Shown here: piece after piece, positions 5,871 to 51,048 of the stretch | Layout: every line of letters starts with the position of its first letter | Numbering within the stretch: the first letter of the stretch is position 1 | NCBI GenBank assembly: GCA_021781455.1 | Contig: JAJXWV010000067.1 | Span: 1 to 58,601 of the forward strand | Reading direction: 5' to 3' | Source of the DNA: Acidobacteriota bacterium | GTDB taxonomy: Bacteria; Acidobacteriota; Thermoanaerobaculia; Gp7-AA8 | DNA: 58,601 bases | Position numbers and translations under genes: made by a program | Notes under the pieces: generated by a model | Database searches by the model: none | The model's input: the letters and a program-made list of their open reading frames with translations, nothing else | Told to the model about the DNA's origin: nothing

Positions 5871-6022
5871 GCCCAATCCAGCGTCCGAGCACGCGAAGCG
5901 CGCGACAGATCCTTCTGTCTTCGACGCTTCCGTCGGGCACTTCTCGCCCTCGTACGCTGTTGTGGTCGCTGGCTCCGGCGGCCTGACGGCCGCCGCTAAA
6001 TTCTTACGGCGGCTCCGCCGCC
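5846..6022. repeat. Compound palindromic element A, copy 2 (left end truncated)
   Basis: Same orientation and interior as the copy at 1961-2161, but the outer left palindrome and AT spacer are missing; the element begins inside the GGCCGTCAGGCC palindrome joined to the hydrolase remnant. The right end is complete and followed by an extra GGCGGTTATGCCGCC hairpin to about 6041. Confidence 0.85.
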
Positions 6023-6047
6023 TCTGGCGGTTATGCCGCCTGCCGAG

Positions 6048-6515
6048 CTATCCGGCGGCGATGCGGGTGAAGGCGGCGCGGGCGGCGGCGCTCGACGAGG
6101 CCATCGCGGAGAGTTTCTCGGCCAGGGATGTCAGCCACTGCTCGAGCGACATGGTCTCCGTCTTCAGCGTGATCCCGCGGACGGTCATGATCCGCTGCGC
6201 CTCGATCTTCGTTCCATTGCGCGATAGGCGGAAGGTGAGCTCCTCGAGGACGACGTCGAATCCCGCGACTTTCTTGAAGAGCATTCCCGCCTCGCGGACG
6301 GTGGTGCGGTCCGGCAACGTCTGGCGGAAGGTCTCCATCAGCCGCTCGAATCCGGCGTGCAGGGTGGCCGAGTCGCCGGCCAGAGAGGCGGCCAGGGCCT
6401 GCGGGTCGATGGCCACGCTGCTCCCGGAGCCGCAGTAGACGCAGGCCACGGTGCGTCCGTCGGCGCTGGCCGCCAGGCGGCCACCGCAGTTGCTGCAGTT
6501 GCGAAATTCAGGCAT
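6048..6515 (-). CDS. Zinc-ribbon protein of unknown function
   Basis: A 155-residue protein starting MPEFRNCSNCGG. Cys7 and Cys10 with Cys25 and Cys28 (CVYCG) form a four-Cys zinc ribbon in the first 30 residues. The rest is mostly helical, with no signal peptide or membrane segment. The frame is open far upstream, but that part is antisense to the YbjQ-type gene; the Met at 6515 puts the ribbon at the N-terminus, as expected. It is divergent from the YbjQ-like gene across about 130 bp, so the two may share a control region. I do not recognise the C-terminal domain. Confidence 0.75.
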   Translation of the reverse strand: MPEFRNCSNCGGRLAASADGRTVACVYCGSGSSVAIDPQALAASLAGDSATLHAGFERLMETFRQTLPDRTTVREAGMLFKKVAGFDVVLEELTFRLSRNGTKIEAQRIMTVRGITLKTETMSLEQWLTSLAEKLSAMASSSAAARAAFTRIAAG

Positions 6516-6585
6516 TGGAGGCGCCGATTTTACGACGAATCGGTGACGGACTCTTCCGTTCCCCGCAAAAAATGTTCGAGGCCTC

Positions 6586-6647: not shown

Positions 6648-7547
6648 ATGGGCCTCTTTGGTCGCACGGATCAGCCTCAACCCGGTGCCCCGCCCCCGCC
6701 TAACGCTCCAGTGCAGCAGACGGCCGCCGCCGGCGCCGGCGGCCTCGCTCCGCACGCCGCGGAGCGGCTCCGTCAGATGCGCGGTGAAGGAGCCAAGCCG
6801 AAGCTCTTCACCAGCGATCTCTCCGTCAACGAGTTCATGCTCATCCGCAAGGCCGGCTTCGAGCCCCTGGGACTGGTCATCGGCTCGTCGATCTACCACA
6901 TCGGCTACCAGCAGGGCGCGTACAGCCAGAACATGGAGCTGACCATGCTCTCCCAGGCCATGTACCAGGCCCGCGAGCTGGCCATGTCTCGCATGGAAGC
7001 CGAGGCGGACATCCTCGGCGCCGACGGCATCGTCGGCGTGCGCCTGGAGGTCGGCCGCTACGAATGGGGCGAGGCTCTCGCCGAGTTCATCGCCGTCGGC
7101 ACGGCCGTGCGCAGCGCCGACGGAACCAGCCACCGCACGCCGAAGGGACTGCCCTTTACCAGCGACCTCTCCGGCCAGGATTTCTATCTGCTGCGGACCA
7201 TGGGCTACACGCCGATGGGCCTGGTGATGGGATCGTGCGTCTACCACGTGGCGCACCTCAGCGTGCGCCAGGCGTTCAAGACGATGGGACAGAACATCGA
7301 GATGGGGAACTTCACACAGGCGCTCTACGAAGCGCGCGAGCTGGCCATGGAACGGATGCAGCACGAGGCGATGGCGCTCGGAGCCGAGGGCATCGTGGGG
7401 GTCAACGTACGCGAACAGAGTCACGGCTGGGAGAGCCACATCATCGAGTACTACTCCGTCGGCACGGCCGTCACTCCGACCACGCCGATCGTCGACGGCT
7501 TGCCGTCGGTGCCGCACCCGACACTGTCGCTGACGATCAACAGTTGA
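6648..7547 (+). CDS. Tandem YbjQ/heavy-metal-binding-domain protein
   Basis: A 299-residue cytoplasmic protein with two copies of the YbjQ (DUF74, putative heavy-metal-binding) fold. Copy 1 is about residues 42-155, copy 2 about 165-290. Both share the series FTSDLS, GLVIGSS/GLVMGSC, ARELAM-RM, LGADGIVGV/LGAEGIVGV and VGTAV. Ordinary YbjQ proteins are about 105 residues and assemble as rings, so this looks like an internal duplication. The first 35 residues are a Pro/Gln/Ala-rich tail. The ATG at 6648 has a strong GGAAGG site. The metal-binding role of the family is itself only predicted. Confidence 0.85.
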   Translation: MGLFGRTDQPQPGAPPPPNAPVQQTAAAGAGGLAPHAAERLRQMRGEGAKPKLFTSDLSVNEFMLIRKAGFEPLGLVIGSSIYHIGYQQGAYSQNMELTMLSQAMYQARELAMSRMEAEADILGADGIVGVRLEVGRYEWGEALAEFIAVGTAVRSADGTSHRTPKGLPFTSDLSGQDFYLLRTMGYTPMGLVMGSCVYHVAHLSVRQAFKTMGQNIEMGNFTQALYEARELAMERMQHEAMALGAEGIVGVNVREQSHGWESHIIEYYSVGTAVTPTTPIVDGLPSVPHPTLSLTINS

Positions 7548-7558
7548 CGCTCTGGTGT

Positions 7559-7613
7559 GGCGCAGGCATTCCTGCCTGCGCCGATCGTGAAGGGCGGCCG
7601 CGAGGCCGCCCTT
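7559..7613. repeat. Two adjacent perfect hairpins, possible terminator of the YbjQ-type gene
   Basis: 7559-7582 has 10-bp arms GGCGCAGGCA and TGCCTGCGCC with a 4-nt loop. 7590-7613 has 10-bp arms AAGGGCGGCC and GGCCGCCCTT with a 4-nt loop. They start 11 nt after the stop codon. No T-run follows, so this may be REP-type DNA or an RNA-stabilising structure. Confidence 0.7.
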
Positions 7614-7640
7614 CGTGCGGTGTGGATGCCAGGTCACCGG

Positions 7641-7717
7641 GTAGGGACGCGCAGCAGCGCGTCCGCAGCTCTCGTCTCAGCCCGCCCGGAGTTGCGGACG
7701 CGCTGCTGCGCGTCCCT
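7641..7717. repeat. Inverted-repeat element B, copy 1
   Basis: GTAGGGACGCGCAGCAGCGC with GTCCGCA, then about 25 nt, then the complement TTGCGGACGCGCTGCTGCGC with GTCCCT. Each arm also contains its own palindrome, GCGCAGCAGCGC. Further copies are at 8304-8333 (one arm) and 17503-17582. Confidence 0.8.
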
Positions 7718-7757
7718 TCAAGTCAGCGCCCGGGCATTGCGCGACCGGGAGCTCGCG

Positions 7758-8186
7758 TTACGGGCGCAAACGATTCCGCCGGCCGAACGCCATCGCCGCT
7801 TGGAACGCGTCGAGCTTCGTCTTCTGATCGGCTGTGAGCACGGCTGCGCGCTCGCTCTTCGCAGAATCGCGGAGCGCTTTGATCTGAGCGCGGAGCGCGT
7901 GGACGGCGATCGCCAGCTTGCCGACCGCGGCGGGATCGGGCGAGCTAGCCTGGAGCGCCGTCTGGAGCTGTTTCCCTATCGACCGTGCGTTCTCGGCCAG
8001 CGGTTTGACCGCGGCCGCCGTGTCGGTGTTGACCTGCTTCCACGCGGCGACCTGATCGGGCGTGAGCTGCAGATAGTTCGCGAGGATGGCCGCGGGACGC
8101 GGCGGGTGCTGCGCCGGCATCTGAGCGATCGCTGTGCCTGCAGCGAGAAGTGTGATTGCGAGAAATGCAACGAAAAGTTTTTTCAT
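7758..8186 (-). CDS. Spy/CpxP-like periplasmic protein
   Basis: A 142-residue exported protein. Signal peptide about 1-21 (MKKLFVAFLAITLLAAGTAIA, cut after AIA). The mature part is helical, Ala/Gln-rich and basic. It carries two LTxxQ-type motifs, LTPDQ near residue 42 and LTADQ near residue 118, the signature of the CpxP/Spy family of periplasmic chaperones and stress sensors. No kinase or regulator of the Cpx type is adjacent. The role is inferred from family: binding unfolded proteins or metals in the periplasm. Confidence 0.75.
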   Translation of the reverse strand: MKKLFVAFLAITLLAAGTAIAQMPAQHPPRPAAILANYLQLTPDQVAAWKQVNTDTAAAVKPLAENARSIGKQLQTALQASSPDPAAVGKLAIAVHALRAQIKALRDSAKSERAAVLTADQKTKLDAFQAAMAFGRRNRLRP

Positions 8187-39065: not shown

Positions 39066-42000
39066 ATGCCACAAACCTTCTTCGAGAAACCGATCCTCAA
39101 CTCGCCGTACGAGTACCCGAAGCAGCACTGGGAGCTCGATGAGAGCGGGCAACCGACGAATCACATCGTGCCCAATCGGCGGAAGGCCGAGTTCATCACA
39201 CCGATCCCGAAACCCAAGAAGCAGAAGAAAGAGCAGAAGGACCTCGTCTTCAACGAAGGCAAGGGGCTCTCGACCGAACAGCAGCAGTACGAGCTGACCT
39301 CCTCATTCATCAATGAGCTGCGAGCGAACGTCGATCGCTGGCGCGCGCTACCCAACCCGAACCAGTGGAACGTCACGCCGGAGACCGCGCGGCTCCTCCA
39401 GCACTGGCGGCAATATCCGTTCACAGGCATCCGGCCGTTCTTCTGCCAGGTCGAAGCTGTCGAGACCGCGATCTGGCTGACCGAGGTCGCACCCAAGATC
39501 GGGAAAGAAGGGCGCAAGTTCCTCGAGCACATCACCAACGCCAACGCTGATTCGAATCCGCTCCTGTGGCGCGTGGCTCTGAAGCTCGCCACGGGCTCCG
39601 GCAAAACCACCGTCATGGCCATGCTGATCGCGTGGCAGACGGTGAACGCCGTACGTCGGTCAAACAGTAAGAACTTCACGCGCGGATTTCTGATCGTCAC
39701 GCCCGGCATCACCATCAAGGATCGCCTGCGCGTCCTCCAGCCGAACGACCCCGACAGTTACTACCAGAGCCGCGAGCTCGTCCCGTCCGACATGCTCCAG
39801 GATCTCGGTAAAGCCAAGATCGTCATCACGAATTACCACGTATTCAAGCTGCGGCAGACGCTCGACATCTCGAAGGGTGGCCGCGCGCTGCTGCAGGGGC
39901 GGACCGGTCCGGAGATCGAGATGCTCGAGACCGAAGGGCAGATGCTCCAGCGGGTGATGCCCGATCTGATGGGAATGAAGAACATTCTCGCCGTCAACGA
40001 CGAGGCGCATCACTGCTATCGCGAGAAGCCGCCCGGCGAAGACGAAGAGACGCTCAAGGGCGACGAAAAGCAAGAGGCGGAGAAAAACCTCGAGGCCGCG
40101 CGCCTCTGGATCTCAGGTCTCGAGGCGGTCAATCGCAAACTCGGCGTGCAGCAGGTCATCGACCTTTCTGCGACGCCGTTTTTCCTCAGTGGCTCCGGCT
40201 ATGCGGAAGGGACGCTTTTCCCCTGGACGATGAGCGACTTCTCACTCATGGACGCGATCGAGTGCGGGATCGTCAAGCTTCCACGCGTGCCAGTGGCCGA
40301 CAACATTCCCGGCGCGCAGGTTCCGATCTATCGCGAGCTCTGGAAACACATCGGCAAGAAGATGCCGAAGAAGGGGCGCGGCAAGTCCAGCGGTCTCGAT
40401 CCACTCGCGCTTCCGGTCGAGTTGCAGACTGCCCTCGAAGCGCTCTATGGCCATTACAAAAAGACGTTCGACCTCTGGCAGGAGGCGGGCATCAAAGTTC
40501 CGCCCTGCTTCATCGTCGTCTGCAACAACACTTCGACATCAAAGCTTGTCTACGACTACATCTCAGGATTCATCCGCGAAAACGAAGATGGTTCGAGCGA
40601 CGTCGTCAACGGTCGGCTCGAGTTGTTCCGCAATTTCGACGAGCACGGAAACGCCATTCCTCGTCCGCGGACGCTTCTCATCGACAGCGAGCAGCTCGAA
40701 TCAGGCGAGGCGCTCGACGACAACTTCCGCGGCATGGCCACCGACGAGATCGAGCGTTTCCGCCGCGAGATCATCGAGCGGAGTGGCGACCGCCGTCAGG
40801 CCGAGAACCTCACCGACCAGGACCTTCTCCGCGAGGTCATGAACACAGTCGGCAAGCCTGCTCGCCTCGGCGAGTCGATCCGCTGCGTCGTCTCCGTCGC
40901 CATGCTCACCGAGGGGTGGGACGCAAACACTGTCACACACGTCCTCGGCGTCCGAGCGTTCGGAACGCAGCTCCTCTGCGAGCAGGTCATCGGCCGCGCA
41001 CTGCGCCGGCAGTCGTACGAGATCAATGAAGAGAGCCTCTTCAACGTCGAGTACGCCGATGTCCTCGGCATTCCGTTCGACTTCACGGCCAAGCCGGTCG
41101 TCGCGCCGCCACACCCGCCGCGCGAGACGATCAATGTCCGAGCGATTACGCCTGATCGCGACGCATGCGAGATCCGATTCCCGCGCGTCGAGGGCTATCG
41201 CGTCGAGCTGCCCGAGGACCGCCTGTCAGCGACATTCAACGACGAGTCGACATTCGAGCTCACGCCGGCTCTCGTCGGCCCGTCGATTACGCGGAACGAA
41301 GGCATCGTCGGCGAGGGCGTCGACCTCACTCTCGTGCACACCGGCGACGTCCGGCAGTCGACTGTCCTCTTTCATCTGACCAAACATCTGCTGCTGACCA
41401 AGTACCGCGACCCCGGAGATGATCCGAAGCTGCATCTGTTCGGTCAGCTCAAGGCCATCACGCGGCAGTGGCTCGACAACTACCTCATCTGCAAAGCGGG
41501 AACGTTTCCGGCCCAGCTCCTCTATCCGACGATCGCAGACATGGCGTGCGAAAAGATCACTGCAGCCATCAGTCGCGAATATGCCGGCGCGCGTCCCATC
41601 AAAGCCGTCCTCGATCCATACAACCCCACCGGCTCGACGATCCACGTCAACTTCAACACCTCGAAGATGGATCGCTGGGAGACGAAGTTCGATCGCTGCC
41701 ACATCAACTGGTGCATTCTCGACAGCGACTGGGAAGGAGAGTTCTGCCGCGTCGCGGAATCGCACCCTTGCGTCCGCGCCTACGTGAAGAACCACAGCCT
41801 CGGATTCGAAGTCCCGTACCGCTACGCCTCCGAGATGCGCCGCTACCGCCCCGACTTCATCGTCCTCGTCGACGACGGCCACGGCGCCGATGACCTGCTG
41901 CACCTGGTCGTTGAGATCAAGGGCTACCGCGGCGAGGATGCCAAAGAAAAGAAGTCGACGATGGACACCTACTGGGTCCCCGGTGTGAACCACCTCGGCA

Positions 42001-42122
42001 CGCACGGCCGCTGGGCCTTCGCCGAGTTCACAGACGTCTGGGAGATGGAGCTCGATTTCGCAAAGAAAGTGGAGAGCCAGTTCAACCAGATGATTGACCG
42101 CGTGATGAAGAGTGAAGGGTGA
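39066..42122 (+). CDS. Restriction helicase-nuclease, BPTD_3080-type / type III Res-like
   Basis: A 1018-residue DEAD-like ATPase with nuclease end. The N-terminus (FEKPILNSPYEYPKQHW) matches the restriction family named after BPTD_3080. Walker A is ATGSGKTT (Lys180), motif II is DEAH at 312-315, motif III DLSATPF, motif VI QVIGRALRR. Near the C-terminus RYRPDFIVLVDDG followed by HLVVEIKGYR (Glu950, Lys952) is a PD-(D/E)xK nuclease site. It should translocate on and cut unmodified DNA in partnership with the methyltransferase at 43177-46092. Two unrelated small genes lie between them. All lie on plus. Cut site and modification base are not shown by sequence. Confidence 0.92.
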   Translation: MPQTFFEKPILNSPYEYPKQHWELDESGQPTNHIVPNRRKAEFITPIPKPKKQKKEQKDLVFNEGKGLSTEQQQYELTSSFINELRANVDRWRALPNPNQWNVTPETARLLQHWRQYPFTGIRPFFCQVEAVETAIWLTEVAPKIGKEGRKFLEHITNANADSNPLLWRVALKLATGSGKTTVMAMLIAWQTVNAVRRSNSKNFTRGFLIVTPGITIKDRLRVLQPNDPDSYYQSRELVPSDMLQDLGKAKIVITNYHVFKLRQTLDISKGGRALLQGRTGPEIEMLETEGQMLQRVMPDLMGMKNILAVNDEAHHCYREKPPGEDEETLKGDEKQEAEKNLEAARLWISGLEAVNRKLGVQQVIDLSATPFFLSGSGYAEGTLFPWTMSDFSLMDAIECGIVKLPRVPVADNIPGAQVPIYRELWKHIGKKMPKKGRGKSSGLDPLALPVELQTALEALYGHYKKTFDLWQEAGIKVPPCFIVVCNNTSTSKLVYDYISGFIRENEDGSSDVVNGRLELFRNFDEHGNAIPRPRTLLIDSEQLESGEALDDNFRGMATDEIERFRREIIERSGDRRQAENLTDQDLLREVMNTVGKPARLGESIRCVVSVAMLTEGWDANTVTHVLGVRAFGTQLLCEQVIGRALRRQSYEINEESLFNVEYADVLGIPFDFTAKPVVAPPHPPRETINVRAITPDRDACEIRFPRVEGYRVELPEDRLSATFNDESTFELTPALVGPSITRNEGIVGEGVDLTLVHTGDVRQSTVLFHLTKHLLLTKYRDPGDDPKLHLFGQLKAITRQWLDNYLICKAGTFPAQLLYPTIADMACEKITAAISREYAGARPIKAVLDPYNPTGSTIHVNFNTSKMDRWETKFDRCHINWCILDSDWEGEFCRVAESHPCVRAYVKNHSLGFEVPYRYASEMRRYRPDFIVLVDDGHGADDLLHLVVEIKGYRGEDAKEKKSTMDTYWVPGVNHLGTHGRWAFAEFTDVWEMELDFAKKVESQFNQMIDRVMKSEG

Positions 42123-42142
42123 AGAGTGAAGAGTGAGAGTGG
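42104..42142. repeat. Heptamer tandem repeat GTGAAGA, block 1
   Basis: Five to six units of GTGAAGA/GTGAAGG run through the last codons of the restriction gene and beyond its stop, ending in GTGAGAGTGGGCAG. The related block at 42752-42784 ends in the near-identical GTGAAAGTGGGCAG. Confidence 0.8.
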
Positions 42143-42235
42143 GCAGTGGCGCTTTGGAGTGTCGGCCGAGGCGCGTAGCGGCGCAGCGCGGCGAGGGACC
42201 CCGATCGCACAGCACTGGAATATCGAGGCTGTTCC

Positions 42236-42760
42236 ATGACGACGAAGAAGACCTCTCTCGTTCCGCGCGAGCGCATCTTCTCTGCGATCCTCGCCATCCG
42301 GGGAGAGAAGGTCCTGCTCGACGCCACTCTCGCCGAGCTCTATGGCGTCGAGACGCGCGTGCTCGTGCAGGCCGTCAAGCGAAACCTCGATCGGTTTCCC
42401 GACGACTTCATGTTCCATCTCACGTCGGAGGAGTTTGCCAACTTGAAATCACAAGTTGTGATCTCAAGTGGTTGGGGTGGACGGCGTACTGAGCCGTACG
42501 CCTTCACGGAGCAGGGTGTGGCCATGCTCTCGAGCGTCCTGAAGAGCGCACGAGCCGTCCAGGTCAACGTGGAGATCATGCGCGCGTTCGTGCGGCTCCG
42601 CCGCGCAGCCGATCAACATGAAGAGCTCGTGCTGCGTCTCGACGCGCTGGAAGAACGATACGACAAACAGTTCGGACAGGTGTTCGAAGCGATCCGCGCA
42701 CTCATCAGCGAAAAAGTGAAGCCGAAGCGGCGGATCGGATTCGCGAAAGCCGAAGAGTGA
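42236..42760 (+). CDS. ORF6N-domain protein
   Basis: A 174-residue protein. The ORF6N (KilA-N-related) domain is about 10-95: [44 protein letters not shown], and [19 protein letters not shown]. The remainder is a charged helix, possibly coiled coil ([23 protein letters not shown]). Such phage-derived DNA-binding proteins often sit as extra genes within restriction-modification loci. The exact role is unknown, perhaps regulatory. It lies between the restriction and methyltransferase genes and is flanked on both sides by GTGAAGA repeat blocks. ATG 42236 is the first Met before the domain. Confidence 0.85.
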
Positions 42761-42784
42761 AGTGTGAAGAGTGAAAGTGGGCAG
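42752..42784. repeat. Heptamer tandem repeat GTGAAGA, block 2
   Basis: GAAGAGTGAAGTGTGAAGAGTGAAAGTGGGCAG. It overlaps the end of the ORF6N gene and supplies the GTG start and first codons (KSESGQ) of the next gene. Confidence 0.8.
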
Positions 42785-43156
42785 CCGCGCGATTTGGGGA
42801 AGCGGACATTCGCGTTTGGGACGAGAGGCGTGCAGCTGTGCCGCGAGCTCGATCAAGCGCCCGGTGTCAGTCGAACGCTTGCCAGGCAGCTCCTCCGCTC
42901 AGGTTGTTCAGTTGGCGCAAACGTCGAGGAGGGGCAGGGAAGCCGGAGCCGCGGAGACTTCACCGCCAAGTACTCGATTGCATGCAAAGAAGCCCGCGGA
43001 ACTCATTATTGGCTCCGCCTTCTGGCGGCGACCGAAATAATGTCTTCGACCCGTCTCAACGCCATCACCGACGAAGCCAACCAGCTCGTCGCGATCCTGA
43101 CCACTATCGTCAAGAAAACGCGAGCCACCCCGAAAGGAGCCAGCGAAGGGCGCTAG
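42764..43156 (+). CDS. Four-helix-bundle protein (23S rRNA intervening-sequence type)
   Basis: 130 residues from a GTG inside the repeat. The core from about residue 10 (DLGKRTFAFGTRGVQLCREL, LARQLLRSGCSVGANVEEGQ, DFTAKYSIACKEARGTHYWL) is the family known from intervening sequences in 23S rRNA genes and as free-standing genes; the fold is shared with Avd, the accessory protein of diversity-generating retroelements. No retroelement is present. The first six residues are encoded by repeat DNA. Function unknown; inserted between restriction and modification genes. Confidence 0.88.
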   Translation: MKSESGQPRDLGKRTFAFGTRGVQLCRELDQAPGVSRTLARQLLRSGCSVGANVEEGQGSRSRGDFTAKYSIACKEARGTHYWLRLLAATEIMSSTRLNAITDEANQLVAILTTIVKKTRATPKGASEGR

Positions 43157-43157
43157 C

Positions 43158-43176
43158 TTTCACCCTTCACTCTTCA
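43158..43176. repeat. Heptamer repeat, inverted block 3
   Basis: TTTCACCCTTCACTCTTCA is the reverse complement of the GTGAAGA blocks and lies directly before the methyltransferase ATG. With block 2 it flanks the four-helix-bundle gene as an inverted pair. Confidence 0.8.
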
Positions 43177-46092
43177 ATGAAATCGAAGCCAAAGACGCAA
43201 AAAGAAATCGCCGCCCTCACTCACGAAGAGGCGAAGCGGAAGAACATTCCGACGGCCGAGTACCAGGCCGTCCTGGAAAAGGACGAACAGACTCCGATCC
43301 AGATCGCGTACGAGCGTCGCAACCGCGATCTCGACCCGCAGCTCGTCTGGCGCGGGAAGGACGAGCAGGACTGGAGCGATCTGGTCGTCAACGCCCCGCC
43401 GCTGTACATCCAGGAGAAGGTCCACCCGAAGGCGCTGATCGACGAGCTGCTGCGCGAGTCGCGGGAGCGGAAGCACGAGGCCGGCGAGATCATGCCCAGC
43501 CTCTTCGCCGACTTCAACGGCCTGCCGAAGGGCGTCGACAAGACGGAGTTCTACCAGCACGACCAGAACTGGTCGAACCGCATGATCCTCGGCGACTCAC
43601 TCCAGGTCATGGCCAGCCTCGCCGAGCGCGAAGGCCTTCGTGGGAAGGTGCAGTGCATCTACTTCGACCCACCGTATGGGATCAAATTTAACTCGAACTT
43701 CCAGTGGTCGACGACGAGTCGGGACGTCAAAGATGGCAACGCGGAACAAATCACGCGTGAGCCGGAACAGGTTAAGGCTTTTCGCGATACGTGGCGTGAT
43801 GGAATCCACAGCTATCTGACCTACTTGCGAGACCGATTAACGGTAGCGCGTGACCTGCTATTGGACTCGGGTTCACTTTTCGTACAGATCGGTGATGAAA
43901 ACGTTCACCGCGTCCGGACGCTTATGGACGAGGTGTTCAGTCCTGCGTGTTTCATCGCGGAAATCGTCTTTCAAAAGACTTCCTCCACTTCATCGGATGA
44001 GCTGTCGGGTGTTTACGATTCATTGCTGTGGTACGGCCGTTTCCCCGCCGCGAAATATCGAGGGCTGTTTCAAATGAAATCGCCGGGAGACGAAGGCGCG
44101 ACCCAGTACTCGTTTGCTCAGGATGGGGCTGGTTCACGAAATACGGTGAGCGACTGGGAGGCGGCAGGCCAGCCGGCTTCCGGATTGAGAATCTTTTCGC
44201 ACGACAACATAACGAGCCAGCGCCCGGCTCAAGGTGAAGACGTTCGTGCTTTTGTGTATGAAGGTAAGACTTTTGAGGTTAAGAAGGGCACGTTCAAGAC
44301 AGATTCGGTGGGCCTCCAGCGTTTGTCGCTTAGTAAGCGCCTGATCTTCATAGGCAACACGCTGCGCTACGTCAGATTCTTGGACGACTTCGCGATCTAC
44401 CCATATTCGAATCTGTGGACTGACACGACCACGTCTGGTTTCGCTGAGCCGAAGACATACGTCGTTCAAACAAATCGAGAGGTCGTCCAGCGCTGTCTTC
44501 TGATGGCTAGCGACCCTGGGGATCTAGTCATTGATCCGACTTGCGGGTCGGGCACAACTGCAACGGTGGCTGAACAGTGGGGCCGCCGCTGGATCACTAT
44601 CGACACATCTCGCGTTGCACTTGCCCTCGCACGCGCCCGAATCATGGGTGCGCGCTTCCCGTACTACCTCCTTGCCGACTCGCGCGACGGCCAGGTGAAG
44701 GAGGCGGAAATCACTCGTACCGCTCCATCTTCGCAGGCCGTCCGCGGCGACATCCGCCACGGGTTCGTCTACGAGCGCGTCCCGCACGTCACACTGAAGT
44801 CGATTGCCAACAACGCCGAGATCGACGTCATATGGGAGAAGTCGCAGAAGAAACTTGAGCCGCTTCGCGAATCACTGAATGCCACGTTGAAGAAGCAGTG
44901 GCAGGAGTGGGAGATCCCGCGCGACGCCGATCCGAAATGGTCGAGCGAAGCCAAGACGCTCCACGCCGCTTGGTGGCAGGCGCGCATCGCTCGCCAGAAG
45001 GAGATCGACGCCTCGATCGCCTCGAAGGCGGAGTTCGAGTTTCTCTACGACAAGCCGTACGAGGACAAGCGGAAGGTCCGCGTCGCCGGCCCGTTCACCG
45101 TGGAGAGCCTCTCGCCCCATCGCGTCCTCGGCGTCGACGAGAACGACAAGCTGATCGACAGCATCGCCGACAGGAAGACCGGCTACGAGGCGAAGCAGGA
45201 CTTCCCGTCGATGATCCTCGAGAACCTCCGCATCGCCGGCGTCCAGCAGGCCCACAAGGAAGACCGCATCACCTTCACCTCGCTCACTCCCTGGCCCGGT
45301 GACCTCGTCTGCGCCGACGGCCGCTACATCGAGGGTGGCACCGGCGACGACCCTGCCACTGCTTCGCAGAGAGCCACCGATCGAGACCCTTCTCCCCCGC
45401 GGCGCGGGGGAGAAGGTGGCCGAAGGCCGGATGAGGGGGCTTCAGCAGTCTCCTCCAACGAAGGAAGAGAACGTCGCGCGGCGATCTTCATCGGCCCCGA
45501 GTTCGGCACCGTCTCCCGCCCCGACCTCGTCGAAGCCGCGCGCGAGGCTGCCGACGGCGGCTTCGACGTCCTGATCGCGTGCGCCTTCAACTACGACGCC
45601 CACGCCACGGAGTTCGCGAAGCTCGGCCGCATCCCGATCCTCAAGGCCCGCATGAACGCCGACCTCCACATGGCCGAGGATCTCAAGAACACTGGCAAAG
45701 GCAATCTCTTCGTGATCTTCGGCGAGCCCGACATCACGATCCTCAACGAAGACGACGGCCGACTGCGCGTGAAAGTGAACGGCGTCGACGTCTTCCACCC
45801 CAGCACTGGCGAAGTCCGCAGCGACGGCCCCGAAGGCATCGCCTGCTGGTTCATCGACACCGACTACAACGAAGAAAGCTTCTTCGTCCGCCACGCCTAC
45901 TTCCTCGGGGCCAATGATCCCTACAAAGCCCTGAAAACGACCCTGAAGGCGGAGATCAACGAAGAAGCGTGGGAAACCCTCCACAGCGACACTTCGCGGC
46001 CGTTTCCGAAGCCAGCGAGTGGGCGGATCGCGGTGAAAGTCATCAACCACCTCGGGGATGAGGTGATGAAGGTGTTTCGCATCGATGCTTGA
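43177..46092 (+). CDS. Site-specific DNA methyltransferase, type III Mod-like
   Basis: A 971-residue enzyme that should methylate adenine (or N4-cytosine) to protect host DNA from the partner nuclease at 39066. Motif IV is DPPYG near residue 166, followed by a long target-recognition part, then motif I DPTCGSGTTATVAEQWGRRW near 452: the beta class order of type III Mod proteins. The C-terminal 220 residues (FIGPEFGTV, CAFNYDAHATEF, IFGEPDITIL, WFIDTDYNEESFF, GDEVMKVFRID) are a conserved part of this system. Residues about 733-757 (Arg/Pro/Gly-rich) are encoded by an inserted palindromic element. Codon use in 43.7-44.6 kb is lower in GC. ATG 43177 follows the repeat. Confidence 0.92.
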   Translation: MKSKPKTQKEIAALTHEEAKRKNIPTAEYQAVLEKDEQTPIQIAYERRNRDLDPQLVWRGKDEQDWSDLVVNAPPLYIQEKVHPKALIDELLRESRERKHEAGEIMPSLFADFNGLPKGVDKTEFYQHDQNWSNRMILGDSLQVMASLAEREGLRGKVQCIYFDPPYGIKFNSNFQWSTTSRDVKDGNAEQITREPEQVKAFRDTWRDGIHSYLTYLRDRLTVARDLLLDSGSLFVQIGDENVHRVRTLMDEVFSPACFIAEIVFQKTSSTSSDELSGVYDSLLWYGRFPAAKYRGLFQMKSPGDEGATQYSFAQDGAGSRNTVSDWEAAGQPASGLRIFSHDNITSQRPAQGEDVRAFVYEGKTFEVKKGTFKTDSVGLQRLSLSKRLIFIGNTLRYVRFLDDFAIYPYSNLWTDTTTSGFAEPKTYVVQTNREVVQRCLLMASDPGDLVIDPTCGSGTTATVAEQWGRRWITIDTSRVALALARARIMGARFPYYLLADSRDGQVKEAEITRTAPSSQAVRGDIRHGFVYERVPHVTLKSIANNAEIDVIWEKSQKKLEPLRESLNATLKKQWQEWEIPRDADPKWSSEAKTLHAAWWQARIARQKEIDASIASKAEFEFLYDKPYEDKRKVRVAGPFTVESLSPHRVLGVDENDKLIDSIADRKTGYEAKQDFPSMILENLRIAGVQQAHKEDRITFTSLTPWPGDLVCADGRYIEGGTGDDPATASQRATDRDPSPPRRGGEGGRRPDEGASAVSSNEGRERRAAIFIGPEFGTVSRPDLVEAAREAADGGFDVLIACAFNYDAHATEFAKLGRIPILKARMNADLHMAEDLKNTGKGNLFVIFGEPDITILNEDDGRLRVKVNGVDVFHPSTGEVRSDGPEGIACWFIDTDYNEESFFVRHAYFLGANDPYKALKTTLKAEINEEAWETLHSDTSRPFPKPASGRIAVKVINHLGDEVMKVFRIDA
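45383..45440. repeat. Dispersed palindromic element inside the methyltransferase gene
   Basis: Arms CTTCTCCCCCGC and GCGGGGGAGAAG form a hairpin, followed by GGTGGCCGAAGGCCGGATGAG; related to 61-104. It is read in frame as a low-complexity stretch (PSPPRRGGEGGRRPDEG) and does not interrupt translation. Confidence 0.85.
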
Positions 46093-46161
46093 ACTATCGT
46101 GTGTGGGTAAGCAACGGTTTCGGGACCCTCGGCGACCTCGATCCGCAGGTTAGGAGCGCGT

Positions 46162-47325
46162 GTGATTGTTACTCACTTGAACGCGAAGAACTGGCGCAAC
46201 TTCAGGCAGATTGATGTGGATCTGCGCGAGAGGCAGTTCATCGTCGGTCCGAATGCTGCGGGGAAATCGAACTTCCTCGACATGTTTCGCTTCCTTCGGG
46301 ATATCGCGAAACGCGAGGGTGGCGGACTGCAGAAGGCGATCAAGGACCGGGGCGGGGTGCCCAAGGTGAGGAGTCTCGCGGCGCGTCGAGATCCTGAAAT
46401 ATCGATCGAGCTTTCTTTTGCGGAGTCCGTCGGTGAGCCGGTCGCCTGGCGCTACGGCCTCGGCATCCGACAAGACACTCGCGGCCACCGACTGCCGCGC
46501 GTTGCGTGGGAGAACGTCTGGCGAGGCGACGAACAGATTCTGATGCGGCCGAACCCGGATGACCGAACCGACCCCCAACGGCTGACGCAGACTTTCCTCG
46601 AACAAATCGGCGCAAATGCCGAGTTTCGTGTCGTGGCGCGATTCCTCGAGACGATCACGTATTTACACCTGGTGCCGCAGCTCCTCAGGCACGCCGATCA
46701 GATCCAGGGTCGGATCATCGAGGATGATCCTTTCGGCCAGGCCTTTCTCGAGCGGATTGCGAAGACGACGGAGAAGCGGCGCAGATCGCGTCTGCGCATC
46801 ATTGAAGACGCACTCCAGATTGCGGTTCCACAGCTCGAGCAGCTGCGGTTCGTGCGCGACAAGGAATCGGGGCGTCCGCATCTCGAGGCGCTCTATTCGC
46901 ATTGGCGCCCACATGCTGGATGGCAGCGCGAAGACCAGTTTTCAGACGGCACTCTCCGGCTGATTGGACTTCTATGGTCACTGCTCGAAGACGAATCGAT
47001 GCTCCTCCTCGAAGAGCCCGAACAATCACTCAACGCTGCGATCGTCGCGCAGCTCGCGCCAGTCATTCACCGAGTGCAGAAACGCCGCCGCCGGCAGGTA
47101 ATCATCAGCACGCACAGCGACGATCTGCTGAACGAGAAAGGGATCGACGGACGCGAAGTGCTCATGCTCAGCCCGGCCGCGGAGGGGACGTCAGTGAGCG
47201 TGGCTTCAGACGTCGCCGAAATCCGCGTTCTTCTCGAGTCCGGCTTGTCCGCTGGGGAAGCCGTTCTGCCGCGCAGCAATCCGGCGCGCGCTGAGCAGCT
47301 CTCTCTCATCGACACAGCACGATGA
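46162..47325 (+). CDS. AAA/SMC-like ATPase of an OLD/Gabija-type pair
   Basis: 387 residues. GTG start at 46162 with AGGAGCG before it. The fold is the RecF/OLD-type ATPase: N-terminal strand LNAKNWRNFRQIDVDL, Walker A GPNAAGKS (29-36), a helical middle, the signature-like FSDGTLRLIGLLW, Walker B MLLLEEPEQSLN and switch His in VIISTHSDDLLN. It should form an ATP-driven dimer on DNA. In OLD and GajA proteins a TOPRIM nuclease is fused behind such a domain; here the protein ends and the next gene, overlapping by 4 nt, carries a TOPRIM-like pattern. Likely anti-phage; starts 69 nt after the methyltransferase. Confidence 0.88.
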   Translation: MIVTHLNAKNWRNFRQIDVDLRERQFIVGPNAAGKSNFLDMFRFLRDIAKREGGGLQKAIKDRGGVPKVRSLAARRDPEISIELSFAESVGEPVAWRYGLGIRQDTRGHRLPRVAWENVWRGDEQILMRPNPDDRTDPQRLTQTFLEQIGANAEFRVVARFLETITYLHLVPQLLRHADQIQGRIIEDDPFGQAFLERIAKTTEKRRRSRLRIIEDALQIAVPQLEQLRFVRDKESGRPHLEALYSHWRPHAGWQREDQFSDGTLRLIGLLWSLLEDESMLLLEEPEQSLNAAIVAQLAPVIHRVQKRRRRQVIISTHSDDLLNEKGIDGREVLMLSPAAEGTSVSVASDVAEIRVLLESGLSAGEAVLPRSNPARAEQLSLIDTAR

Positions 47326-47906
47326 TCGCCGCCGTTGAAGATCTCCTCAGCGAAGCTGTCGTGAAGAAGCTCGTAGCTGCGATCCGACCGGAGCTCTCGA
47401 TCTCTTTCGTGGCTAGGAACGGCCGCAGCCATATTGAGAAGAAAGCTCGCGAGCTGAATCGTGCAGCGCACAAAGTGCCGGTACTGATACTGGCGGATCT
47501 GGATCGCCCGCAGCCATGTCCTGCTGATCTCATCAGCCAGTTCATTCAAGGGGCGCCGGGTCCCATGCTTCTATTCCGCATCGCAGTGATGGAAATCGAG
47601 TCGTGGATCATGGCGGATCGCGACGGTTTCGCCGGCTTCCTCGGAGTTCCACCGCATCGCATTCCAGCCAATACAGACTCAGTTCCTCAACCCAAAGAGT
47701 TCATAGTCAACCTCGCGCGGAAGTCGAAGCGGAGAAATATTCGCGAAGACCTCGTCCCAGCGCCAGGTGGCACAGCTGCCATCGGGCCAGCATTCAATCC
47801 TCGTATCGCGAGCTTCGTCGTGAACGAGTGGGACTTCAGCCGTGCAGCTCATGCGTCGCCAAGTCTCCGCCGCGCGATTGAGCGACTGGGCGAGGCGTTC
47901 AAGTGA
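47322..47906 (+). CDS. TOPRIM-like (DUF4276-type) nuclease partner of the ATPase
   Basis: 194 residues, ATG overlapping the ATPase stop as ATGA. The order matches a TOPRIM fold: Glu6 in AAVEDLLSE, a Gly in VARNGRSHI, the Asp pair Asp59/Asp61 in VLILADLDRP, then MEIESWIMAD. These acidic residues would bind the metal for nicking or cutting DNA. The C-terminal half has a basic stretch (NLARKSKRRNIRED). No zinc finger or membrane part. DUF4276-type proteins commonly lie beside AAA ATPases. It probably acts with the 46162 ATPase as a two-chain OLD/GajA equivalent. Fold assignment is by pattern only. Confidence 0.75.
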   Translation: MIAAVEDLLSEAVVKKLVAAIRPELSISFVARNGRSHIEKKARELNRAAHKVPVLILADLDRPQPCPADLISQFIQGAPGPMLLFRIAVMEIESWIMADRDGFAGFLGVPPHRIPANTDSVPQPKEFIVNLARKSKRRNIREDLVPAPGGTAAIGPAFNPRIASFVVNEWDFSRAAHASPSLRRAIERLGEAFK

Positions 47907-47934
47907 AGAGGCAATCGGATGCCGCCAGCGGTGA

Positions 47935-50139
47935 ATGACGATGGAGTTCCGGATCGCTGACAGCTTCACTGAAAGTCTGAGCCGGTTGACTGCTGAAGGG
48001 CAGAGGGCCGCTAAGACAACAGCCTTCGACCTGCAGTTGAACCCTGCCAATCCAGGATTGCAGTTCCACCGTCTCGATAAGGCGAGGGACGCGAACTTCT
48101 GGTCGGTCCGTGTCAATGCCGATATCCGCATCATCGTGCACCGAACCCCATCGAGCCTGATGCTCTGCTACGTCGATCACCACGATGCGGCCTATCGATG
48201 GGCGGAGCGGCGGAAGATCGAGCAGCATCCGGTCACCGGCGCGGCGCAGCTCGTCGAGATTCGGGAGACGGTCCGCGAGATCGTGGTCCCGCGGTATTTC
48301 GAGCCGGCAGATGAGGCACATACGGGCGTGTCCGTGCCACAGGGACCTGGAGCACAGCCAGGAGTGCCCGTGCTCCAGAGGAAACCGCTGTTTTCTGAGA
48401 TTCCCGAGTGGGTTCTACAGAGCTACGGCGTCCCGCAGGAGTGGATGGCCGACGTTCGCATGGCGACCGAGGAGACGCTGTTCGACGTGGCCGAGCACCT
48501 GCCGAGCGAGGCAGCCGAGGCCCTGCTCGATCTCGCGACCGGAACGAGACCGCCGATCGGCCCCGGCATCCGAGTCTCCGCCGGCAGGGTGGCAGATGCC
48601 GCGTCGTCGATCGAGGACGGTTTGCGGCATCCCGACGCACAGCGACGTTTTCGCGTCATCAACAACGTCGAGGAGCTCGAGCGTGCGCTCGATGCGCCGT
48701 GGGAGAAGTGGGCGATCTTCCTTCATCCCGCGCAGCGGCAGCTCGTCGAGCACGACTACTCCGGCCCGGCCCGCGTCTCCGGATCGGCCGGCACCGGCAA
48801 GACGATCGTCGCTCTTCATCGCGCCGTTCATCTCGCCCGTACCGACCGCGACGCGCGCGTCCTCCTGACCACGTTCTCTGAACCGCTGGCGAACGCGCTT
48901 CGCTCGCGTCTGCGCATGCTCATCGGCAACGAGCCGCGCATCGCCGAGCGACTCGAGCTTCACTCGATCGGCGCGATCGGACGGCGTCTGTATGCCGTCC
49001 ACTTCGGTCAGGCGAATGTCGCGACCGCGGAGCAGCTGCAGCGGATCCTGAGCGAATCGTCCGCCGCGACTCCGGACCACAAATTCACGGCACACTTCCT
49101 CTGGACCGAGTGGTCGACCGTCGTCGACGCCTGGCAGGTCGAGAGCTGGGAGGAGTATCGCGACGTGAAGCGCCTCGGCCGCAAGACGCGCCTCCCCGAA
49201 AAGCCGCGCGCCCTCCTCTGGTCGATCTTCGAGAAGGTCAAAGCGAAACTAAGCAAAGAGAAGCTCATCACCGAAGCCACGCTCTTCAGCCGCCTCGCAG
49301 AGAAGATCTCGCGACTTCCGCGTCCGACGTTCGATTACGTCGTCGTCGACGAAGCACAGGACGTCAGCGTCGCCGAGCTCCGCTTCCTCGCCGCTCTCGG
49401 CGGTGGCCGCCCTAACAGCCTCTTCTTCGCCGGCGACCTCGGCCAGCGCATCTTCCAGCAACCCTTCTCCTGGAGCTCTCTCGGCGTCGACATCCGCGGC
49501 CGCTCCTCGCGGCTTCGCATCAACTATCGCACCTCGCACCAGATCCGCTCCCAGGCCGACCGCCTCCTCGCGCCAACTCTCGCCGACGTCGACGGCATCA
49601 CCGAAGAGCGCACGGGCACGATCTCCGTCTTCAACGGCATCCCACCAACGATCGCAATCGAGAAGAACGAATCCGCCGAGCGCGATCGCGTGGCGCAATG
49701 GATCATCGACCGAACCGCCGAGGGTTTGCAGCCGCACGAGATCGCAGTGTTTGTCCGCTCGACTGCGCAGCTTCCTCGCGCCGAAGTCGCAGTGAAGAAA
49801 GCCGGCGTCTCCTACCTGATGCTCGATGAGCGGATGGACACCAAACACGGGCGGCTGTCGATCACTACGATGCATCTCGCCAAAGGTCTCGAATTCCGAG
49901 CCGTCGCAGTGATGGCTTGCGACGACGAAGTGATTCCTCTGCAGGAGCGCATCGAATCCGTTTCGGACGAATCGGATCTGGACGAGGCTTACCAGACGGA
50001 GAGGCATCTGCTGTATTTGGCGTGCACGCGAGCCCGCGATCACCTGCTGGTCTCCGGCGTTGCTCCGGGATCTGAATTCGTCGCGGATCTTCGAAACAAA
50101 TCCGGCCCGGAAACGCTTCGCACCGAACACCAGAAATGA
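47935..50139 (+). CDS. UvrD/Rep-type helicase with N-terminal RelE/ParE-like domain
   Basis: 734 residues. Residues 1-95 follow the RelE/ParE toxin fold: FRIADSFTESLSRL, a helix, NPANPGLQFHRL, FWSVRVNADIRIIVHR and LCYVDHHDAAYRW. A linker of about 150 residues follows. The helicase is SF1A: Walker A SGSAGTGKT (Lys289), motif II VVDEAQD (Asp472, Glu473), DLGQRIFQQPFSW, motif IV NYRTSHQIR, motif V HLAKGLEFRAV, motif VI LLYLACTRARD. It is close in size to UvrD-type proteins. It starts 28 nt after the TOPRIM-like gene, giving an ATPase-TOPRIM-helicase order as in Gabija (GajA plus GajB). Whether the toxin-fold part cuts RNA is not shown. Confidence 0.9.
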   Translation: MTMEFRIADSFTESLSRLTAEGQRAAKTTAFDLQLNPANPGLQFHRLDKARDANFWSVRVNADIRIIVHRTPSSLMLCYVDHHDAAYRWAERRKIEQHPVTGAAQLVEIRETVREIVVPRYFEPADEAHTGVSVPQGPGAQPGVPVLQRKPLFSEIPEWVLQSYGVPQEWMADVRMATEETLFDVAEHLPSEAAEALLDLATGTRPPIGPGIRVSAGRVADAASSIEDGLRHPDAQRRFRVINNVEELERALDAPWEKWAIFLHPAQRQLVEHDYSGPARVSGSAGTGKTIVALHRAVHLARTDRDARVLLTTFSEPLANALRSRLRMLIGNEPRIAERLELHSIGAIGRRLYAVHFGQANVATAEQLQRILSESSAATPDHKFTAHFLWTEWSTVVDAWQVESWEEYRDVKRLGRKTRLPEKPRALLWSIFEKVKAKLSKEKLITEATLFSRLAEKISRLPRPTFDYVVVDEAQDVSVAELRFLAALGGGRPNSLFFAGDLGQRIFQQPFSWSSLGVDIRGRSSRLRINYRTSHQIRSQADRLLAPTLADVDGITEERTGTISVFNGIPPTIAIEKNESAERDRVAQWIIDRTAEGLQPHEIAVFVRSTAQLPRAEVAVKKAGVSYLMLDERMDTKHGRLSITTMHLAKGLEFRAVAVMACDDEVIPLQERIESVSDESDLDEAYQTERHLLYLACTRARDHLLVSGVAPGSEFVADLRNKSGPETLRTEHQK

Positions 50140-50149
50140 CGAGGGAATT

Positions 50150-50554
50150 GTGAAAGTCTTCATCAGCGTCCGCCGTCTCAGGTCGAGGATCGCCGCCCTT
50201 CCGTCGGATCGGCCGCGGATCAATCCGGGTGTCTGGTTCCGCACGCAGAAGGAGCACTGGTTAGGATGGCTGGCCGAGTATCACGGGCCAGGTGCCTATG
50301 GCCGGGTCGGTGGCGTGGGGCGCGACGCAGGTTTCGCATACAACCACATCGTCAATCCTTACATGCTGGTGTGGTTGGTCAGGGCGGCGGGCTTCCCAGC
50401 CAGTGTCGTTCGCGAGGTTCGCAATGCGGGCGACGGAGCCGGGACTTACCAGGCACGAAGCGCGGCGATCCGGAAGATCGTCCCGTGGGAACGAATCGCC
50501 CCGATTCTTTGGCCCAGGCTCGAACAATTTCGCGACGAAAGGATCGTCGAATGA
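50150..50554 (+). CDS. Conserved hypothetical protein of the defence island
   Basis: 134 residues from GTG 50150, with GAGGGA before it and 10 nt after the helicase stop. It is basic and aromatic: PGVWFRTQKEHWLGWLAEYHGPGAY, then AGFAYNHIVNPYMLVWLVRAAG and SAAIRKIVPWERIAPILWPRL. I have seen this pattern in small unnamed proteins, some encoded near ASCH-domain proteins as here, but it has no function assigned that I know. No signal or membrane segment. A 36-bp stretch of its 3' end is duplicated just downstream at 50560-50595. Confidence 0.7.
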   Translation: MKVFISVRRLRSRIAALPSDRPRINPGVWFRTQKEHWLGWLAEYHGPGAYGRVGGVGRDAGFAYNHIVNPYMLVWLVRAAGFPASVVREVRNAGDGAGTYQARSAAIRKIVPWERIAPILWPRLEQFRDERIVE

Positions 50555-50595
50555 TCTGCGTGGGAACGAATCGCCCCGATTCTCTGGCCCAGGCT
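50485..50595. repeat. 36-bp direct duplication
   Basis: 50485-50520 and 50560-50595 are identical but for one base: GTGGGAACGAATCGCCCCGA then TTCTYTGGCCCAGGCT. The first is in the C-terminal codons of the 50150 gene, the second in the spacer before the ASCH gene. Confidence 0.9.
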
Positions 50596-50614: not shown

Positions 50615-50954
50615 ATGCCAGGGGACATCAGGCTTGCTCTCAGCATTCGGCAACCCTACGTCGAAGAGATCATGCAGGGGACGAAGCGGATCGAGTACCG
50701 AACGATTCCGACAACGATCCGCGGCACGGTATTCATTTACGCATCATTGGAGGCGGGCGACGAGCAGGGATTCGCGAAGCTCAAGAAGCAGGTCGGCGAT
50801 TTGCCCACCGGCCATGTCGTCGGAACTGTCGAAATTACCGGCTGTGCGCTCAGGAACGGCCGCTATGAAATGGCGTCTCTCCAATCCGAAGCGGCTACGC
50901 AAGCCGGTCAAGCCCCAACGACACCCTCAGCCGGTGTGGTTCCGGCCGTTCTGA
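50615..50954 (+). pseudogene. ASCH-domain protein with a 1-base frameshift near its end
   Basis: The first 85 residues are an ASCH domain: LALSIRQPYVEEIMQGTKRIEYRT, RGTVFIYASLE, and GHVVGTVEITGCALRNGRYE. ASCH proteins of about 110-120 residues bind nucleic acid; some are RNases or act on modified nucleosides. As read, the frame then gives an unrelated tail and stops at 50959. Dropping one A from the AAA at 50868-50870 restores YEWRLSNPKRLRKPVKPQRH and QPVWFRPF with stop at 50954, the normal end of this family. So either the gene is recently broken or a homopolymer base is wrong. Last gene of the island on plus. Confidence 0.85.
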
Positions 50955-51048
50955 GTTAGGCGACCCGCACACCCCACGCTTCCCCCATGTCTATGCTCAG
51001 TTTCAGCCGCTCCTATTGAAGGCGACGAACCTGAGAGAAAATGCGGCG

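Follow-up and report, generated by a model that had tools for sequence, protein, structure and literature searches.

The genes described here lie in a window of 58,601 nucleotides, the whole stretch of Acidobacteriota DNA that was analysed. At its centre of interest are two overlapping genes, which we call A and B, placed between the methyltransferase and helicase genes of a Type III restriction-modification operon:

39066..42122, + strand: Res subunit, Type III restriction-modification (a homologue, 57-77% identical, precedes Mod in nearly all related loci)
43177..46092, + strand: Mod methyltransferase, Type III (ATG start used; PADLOC MTase_III E = 0; Pfam N6_N4_Mtase 2.5e-29)
46093..47934, + strand: cargo slot between Mod and UvrD, holding A-B here and elsewhere empty (3-12 bp) or filled by other modules (up to 5.9 kb)
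46162..47325, + strand: gene A, OLD-like ABC ATPase without TOPRIM (HEC-01A), 387 aa, GTG start (PADLOC HEC-01A, Pfam AAA_21)
46246..46269, + strand: Walker A of A, G29-P-N-A-A-G-K35-S36 (G29, N31, A32, G34, K35 and S36 invariant in 27 sequences)
46942..46959, + strand: ABC signature of A, SDGTLR, residues 261-266 (invariant in 27 sequences)
47113..47115, + strand: switch histidine H318 of A (invariant in the 27-sequence alignment)
47322..47325, + strand: ATGA, in which the stop of A and the start of B overlap (sequence; at least 14 of the 31 other loci also overlap by exactly 4 nt)
47322..47906, + strand: gene B, stand-alone TOPRIM protein (HEC-01B), 194 aa (PADLOC HEC-01B, model, profile-profile match)
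47337..47339, + strand: E6 of B, TOPRIM Glu after strand 1 (residues 2-5) (29 of 30 homologues; aligns to the Glu of OLD 'VEG')
47496..47504, + strand: D59-L-D61 of B, DxD at the end of strand 3 (residues 54-60) (D59 in 29 and D61 in 28 of 30 homologues; aligns to OLD 'DgD')
47592..47600, + strand: E91-I-E93 of B (E93 in 30 and E91 in 18 of 30 homologues; spacing as in OLD T506-x-E508)
47935..50139, + strand: UvrD-family helicase with a weak RelE/HigB-like N-terminus (Pfam UvrD 1.5e-19)

A longer GTG reading frame of Mod begins at 42838. Three smaller elements were noted by eye only: an ORF between Res and Mod with the look of a four-helix bundle of the S23 type (42764-43156), an ASCH-domain-like ORF after UvrD (50615-50959) and, preceding the latter at about 50430-50560, a short repeat that gives GTNRPDSLAQA twice in translation. 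Several other Type III loci carry a gene of about 300 aa between Res and Mod.

The product of A matches Pfam AAA_21 at 1.3e-37 (130.9 bits, against a cut-off of 27) and PADLOC HEC-01A at 2.5e-154, and its Walker B reads LLLLEEPE. Just 69 residues follow H318 before the chain stops at residue 387, the C-terminal end of the AlphaFold model (pLDDT 89.7) consists of short helices, and no TOPRIM domain was seen in that model, in agreement with the original prediction, made from the letters of the sequence, that the ATPase ends soon after its switch histidine and lacks a TOPRIM. At the level of sequence the profile matches are to GajA/OLD; the best structural matches, obtained with VIA, were to PtuA and to the heads of SMC/Rad50, not to AriA or GajA, and the absence of the latter two among the 50 VIA matches listed for A is not evidence against kinship. 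These data support the assignment of A as an OLD-like ABC ATPase without a TOPRIM.

Pfam alone does not make a convincing case for B as a TOPRIM protein: the match to DUF4276 (PF14103) reaches 18.8 bits (E 0.0021), below the gathering cut-off of 30.2, and that to the OLD-like TOPRIM model (E 0.27) is likewise under its cut-off. The strongest hit is PADLOC HEC-01B (1.8e-59), so that the profile search against TOPRIM and DUF4276 models, the check on which the original prediction had staked itself, did not refute it, with HEC-01B as the nearest family followed, weakly, by DUF4276 and the OLD-like TOPRIM. The conserved residues follow the published TOPRIM motif definition (a Glu after strand 1, a Gly after strand 2 and a DxD at strand 3; PMC6755086), since E6, D59 and D61 are joined by G34, which lies after strand 2 (residues 28-31) and is kept in 30 of 30 homologues. 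The catalytic E400, D455, D457 and E508 of class 2 OLD proteins (PMC6755086) have putative counterparts in E6, D59, D61 and E93 of B, and E93 is likely the counterpart of the metal B ligand E508. Besides the first Glu and the DxD, the two-metal set of OLD nucleases comprises an E/D at +4, a Glu in the first helix of the helical domain and a Lys, for which K125 is one candidate in B. Single substitutions in the metal site of class 2 OLD were silent (PMC6755086). The TOPRIM order that had been read from Glu6, Asp59/Asp61 and the EIESW motif thus holds for E6, D59, D61, E93 and W95 (W95 in all 30 homologues), but the retention of E91 in merely 18 of 30 means that only the second Glu of EIESW is a feature of the family.

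The AlphaFold model of B, built with 30 homologues (pLDDT 95.4), shows the order strand 1, E6, helix, strand 2, G34, helix, strand 3, DxD, helix, strand 4. Class 2 OLD proteins supply its first four VIA matches, all to their C-terminal regions (Z 9.9 to 8.3, 150-161 of 194 residues aligned), headed by 6nk8_A (Z 9.9, rmsd 3.4, 161 aligned) and including 6njv/w/x (Z 8.3-8.6); AriB of PARIS (Z 7.7 and 7.4) and retron Eco2 (Z 5.6) were also recovered, and the background, represented by lumazine synthases, extends to Z 7.8, so that the OLD matches stand above it, not enormously. A plain Foldseek search with the same model gave no significant match, returning receiver domains and lumazine synthase with E values from 0.26 upwards, a common Rossmann-like arrangement, and the fold match therefore rests on the second look with VIA together with the profile and motif evidence. 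Searching the sequence of B against solved structures yielded chance matches only (E 0.09 and 0.57). In a profile-profile (HH) comparison, the B family scored 35.6 against OLD TOPRIMs, the latter profile being built from proteins of the same phylum as the window, compared with a mean of 11.4 and a maximum of 21.0 for 200 column shuffles and 13.8 for the reversed profile. Motif order, predicted fold, profile-profile score and the HEC-01B match together support B as a TOPRIM protein, and by its motifs and model B is probably a metal-dependent nuclease.

Close inspection of the metal site divides the B family into two halves, one with E6-G7-x-x-[D/E]10 and the other, to which the window belongs, with E6-D7-x-x-[S/T]10; an Asp at position 7 always goes with Ser, Thr or Gly at position 10, and a Gly at position 7 with Asp or Glu at position 10. 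The truncated B of one locus (L056) fits neither pattern. The canonical half resembles OLD (E400, E404) and RNase M5, whereas the clade of the window departs from the E-G-x-x-E/D of OLD and GajA by its E6-D7-x-x-S10: the position four residues after the Glu, acidic in OLD, in half of the family and, as Asp/Glu, in the sister clade, is Ser in the clade of the window. The half that includes the window thus lacks the acid that holds the metal B water in OLD, and nearly always has Glu at position 91, a pattern in the alignment from which we suggest that its metal B site may be rewired. Since the variant tracks, if not exactly, a deep division of the A-B tree, the change may have been a single event.

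The prediction of two reading frames sharing an ATGA is confirmed. Homologues of A and B are adjacent in 37 of 37 other loci examined (31 plus 6 more), and in most of those of the 31 that do not show the exact overlap the gap is within about 10 nt; the recurrence of the overlap and of near-zero gaps places the pairing of A with B far beyond chance. A scan of 45900-48100, too weak to use, found no promoter-like site or coding-strand terminator between the genes and a single terminator, within A. Of the equal, coupled synthesis that had been proposed, the coupling is suggested by the ATGA, but an overlap is no proof of equal amounts; nor is it proof of a complex. Functional equivalence of the pair to single-chain OLD proteins does draw unexpected support from the single-chain ATPase-TOPRIM proteins that occupy the same slot in two other loci (L150 and L197). 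The earlier interpretation of the pair is, in sum, partly supported. In one genome, G420, A-B occurs twice, next to a Type III gene in both cases (L120, identical to L007, at 9-617, and L119 at 7364-7951). In this genome the DxD is lost from one B (N59, S61) and kept in the other (D, D).

The context outside 46162-47906 tells most about the function of the pair. Res and Mod are present together, as expected of a Type III restriction-modification system, and UvrD homologues follow Mod, in the same orientation, in each of the 17 Pseudomonadota loci fetched and in 14 other loci of the phylum of the window, giving the gene order Res-Mod-UvrD in two phyla. Because its close homologues in these loci stand directly behind a Type III Mod, UvrD belongs to the Type III operon as its third conserved gene, with A-B inserted between Mod and UvrD. 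As a separate observation, the UvrD N-terminus gave values of 0.0088 and 0.0058 against Pfam HigB-like (window 39066-50139; L129-L144, L188-L204).

Across loci, Res, Mod and UvrD are 47-77% identical to those of the window, and the contents of the slot vary nonetheless, even among relatives whose flanks are about 70% identical. It is empty or nearly so in nine loci (L133, with 3 bp between Mod and UvrD, L134, with 12 bp, and L136, L141, L144, L149, L191, L195 and L196). Elsewhere it contains SIR2-HerA (L129, whose Res, Mod and UvrD are 77, 67 and 73% identical to the window), Dsr2 (L143), PDC-M32A/B (L131), HEC-07 (L193 and L194), an SMC/LmuB-like ATPase with two more genes (L135), an HNH protein and others (L190), genes without an assigned identity (L130, L137, L188 and L192), another HEC-01 subfamily made of an AAA_21 protein and a true DUF4276 protein (L142; 2e-45, 155.8 bits) or single-chain OLD-type proteins with 'VEG...DxD...IE' motifs (L150 and L197). 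L129 and L130 belong to genomes of the same family as the window. The two slot ORFs of L130 (6928-8201; 251 and 179 aa) may be a decayed copy, the second weakly matching PDC-M32A. Cargo also occurs at the edges of the operon: L195 has a SIR2 gene directly 3' of UvrD (16213-17517), and in L198 a SIR2-HerA pair precedes Res (12415-15773). The nearest relative of the A-B pair of the window (L040, same family, 72% identical) sits away from restriction genes, in a genome that gave no match to Mod; such a pair outside restriction-modification, together with similar flanks around swapped cargo, indicates that operon and cargo have separate histories.

Other A-B loci touch restriction systems in different ways. 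Beside Type III genes the orders Res-Mod-A-B (L055), Res-A-B-Mod (L059), Mod-A-B (L007/L120) and A-B-Res (L119) were found; in Type I loci the pair lies inside the operon (HsdS-A-B-...-HsdR, L056) or behind HsdR (L058). In addition, A-B overlaps HmaB of Hma in L050 and in L053 is followed by a helicase and a Type IIG-like enzyme. In the Type I locus L058, a 184-aa fragment resembling the UvrD of the window (6018-6569) stands just before A. Within the phylum, 2 of the roughly 20 further B loci adjoin a Mod, which by a rough count, inflated by defence islands, is far above random placement; defence islands alone could account for part of this clustering. On the A-B tree the Type III label is no more clustered than in shuffles, which is consistent with repeated recruitment and is not proof of it.

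Neither the pair nor its two-chain design is new. Both genes match over nearly full length, adjacent and in the same order, the models of HEC-01, a candidate system catalogued in PADLOC; the catalogue gives no functional description, and we found no source for the TOPRIM assignment or the Type III slot, which come from this analysis. The separation of an OLD-like ABC ATPase and a TOPRIM nuclease into two genes is known from PARIS (AriA and AriB; class 4 OLD) (PMC9122126, PMC12796447), in which detection of an anti-restriction protein ends the hold of AriA on AriB, which goes on to cleave tRNA (PMC9122126; PMC12409363), an abortive response to anti-restriction proteins (PMC9122126). PARIS is defined by an AAA_15/AAA_21 ATPase beside a DUF4435 partner at a score of at least 27 (PMC9122126). 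A is such an ATPase next to a partner gene, but B gave no match to DUF4435 at E up to 1, and we therefore reject membership of PARIS by that definition; B is also shorter (194 aa against about 305 residues in the matched AriB chains), with profile matches to HEC-01B and DUF4276. With class 2 OLD and GajA, B shares TOPRIM motifs and fold, the difference being that those proteins are one chain and A-B two. In the open papers searched there was no match for HEC-01 or DUF4276, and none described a Type III operon of the Res-Mod-UvrD kind whose Mod-UvrD gap takes exchangeable contents, an absence that is weak evidence.

Two kinds of system offer a precedent for such a module beside restriction genes. 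TOPRIM-linked OLD-ABC modules in BREX have been read as back-up effectors (PMC12839542); they are the same kind of module in a restriction-like operon, with the same proposed role, and differ from the present case in that the host here is Type III restriction-modification with a defined Mod-UvrD slot. PrrC of the EcoprrI restriction system (discussed in PMC9122126) is a different enzyme in a Type I system and shares the idea of a suicidal back-up, a nuclease brought into action by the inhibition of restriction.

Starting from what the data show, namely a TOPRIM fold with its motifs in B, ATPase motifs in A, their adjacency, the Res-Mod-UvrD operon and the swapping of slot contents, we favour, as a fairly probable reading, a two-chain OLD-like sensor-nuclease that serves as an exchangeable and probably abortive back-up effector of Type III restriction. 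Complex formation, substrate, trigger and the guarding of restriction are here inferred from related systems. As subunits on separate chains, A would be an ABC ATPase that dimerises on ATP and keeps B inactive, and upon triggering of A, B would act as a metal-dependent TOPRIM nuclease on nucleic acid, with tRNA or DNA of the host as possible targets. From its place between Mod and UvrD, the pair would probably fire once restriction is disabled or evaded by phages, much as PARIS and the tRNase PrrC back up other restriction systems; it is by analogy with PARIS and the BREX OLD-ABC modules that a second line of defence, firing on a breach of restriction, appears the likeliest role. That single-chain OLD proteins and the two-chain A-B do the same job is best argued from their occupation of the same slot.

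A UvrD gene starting 29 bp past B, GajB-like PADLOC profiles among those listed for it and the resemblance of A and B to the two domains of GajA raise the prospect of a split Gabija, in which A and B would equal GajA, UvrD would equal GajB and 46162-50139 would form one three-gene defence system. In Gabija, however, ATPase and TOPRIM share the GajA chain and the helicase GajB is the constant partner, whereas A has no TOPRIM and the UvrD found here is conserved beside Mod and not beside A-B: the same UvrD occurs in the Type III operon with or without the pair, no other A-B locus examined has UvrD following, the sole trace being the UvrD-like fragment upstream of A in L058, and its best PADLOC profile is not GajB. 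As UvrD tracks Mod and not A-B, we reject this highly improbable reading, which is largely refuted. We also regard as highly improbable a toxin-antitoxin style or housekeeping pair of ATPase and nuclease, for instance in DNA repair, for which an archaeal OLD protein that acts in the cell cycle and not in defence offers a parallel (PMC12796447), but which sits poorly with a patchy distribution (25 of 396 genomes and 6 of 398) and with the finding of the pair on viral contigs and alongside defence genes.

A more serious competitor, if still unlikely, is that the pair is a defence system in its own right that merely came to lie in a defence island, its nearness to restriction genes having no functional meaning. 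Most A-B loci have ordinary surroundings; about three-quarters do not adjoin restriction genes, which the pair must accordingly be able to do without, and PARIS functions without EcoKI (PMC9122126). Against this, A-B lies within operons, on the same strand and with near-zero gaps, in at least three Type III arrangements and inside a Type I operon, and the Mod-UvrD slot repeatedly houses defence modules.

Beyond the exchangeable effector that we favour for A-B itself, a broader proposition, to which we give even chances, is that these loci define a Res-Mod-UvrD subtype with a fixed slot that exchanges unrelated infection-triggered suicide modules (HEC-01, SIR2-HerA, Dsr2, single-chain OLD, HEC-07, SMC-like and unassigned genes). 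Restriction and a replaceable back-up killer would then form one genetic unit, with A-B as one such cartridge; the conserved UvrD may be its shared sensor or partner. Links between restriction and suicidal back-up have so far been mostly single cases (PrrC, PARIS and BREX), and a slot that recurs in the same place offers a natural experiment, in which all cargoes are predicted to answer the same breach, the loss of restriction. The slot may also serve as a discovery tool, with the unassigned genes in L130, L137, L150, L188 and L192 as candidate new defence effectors.
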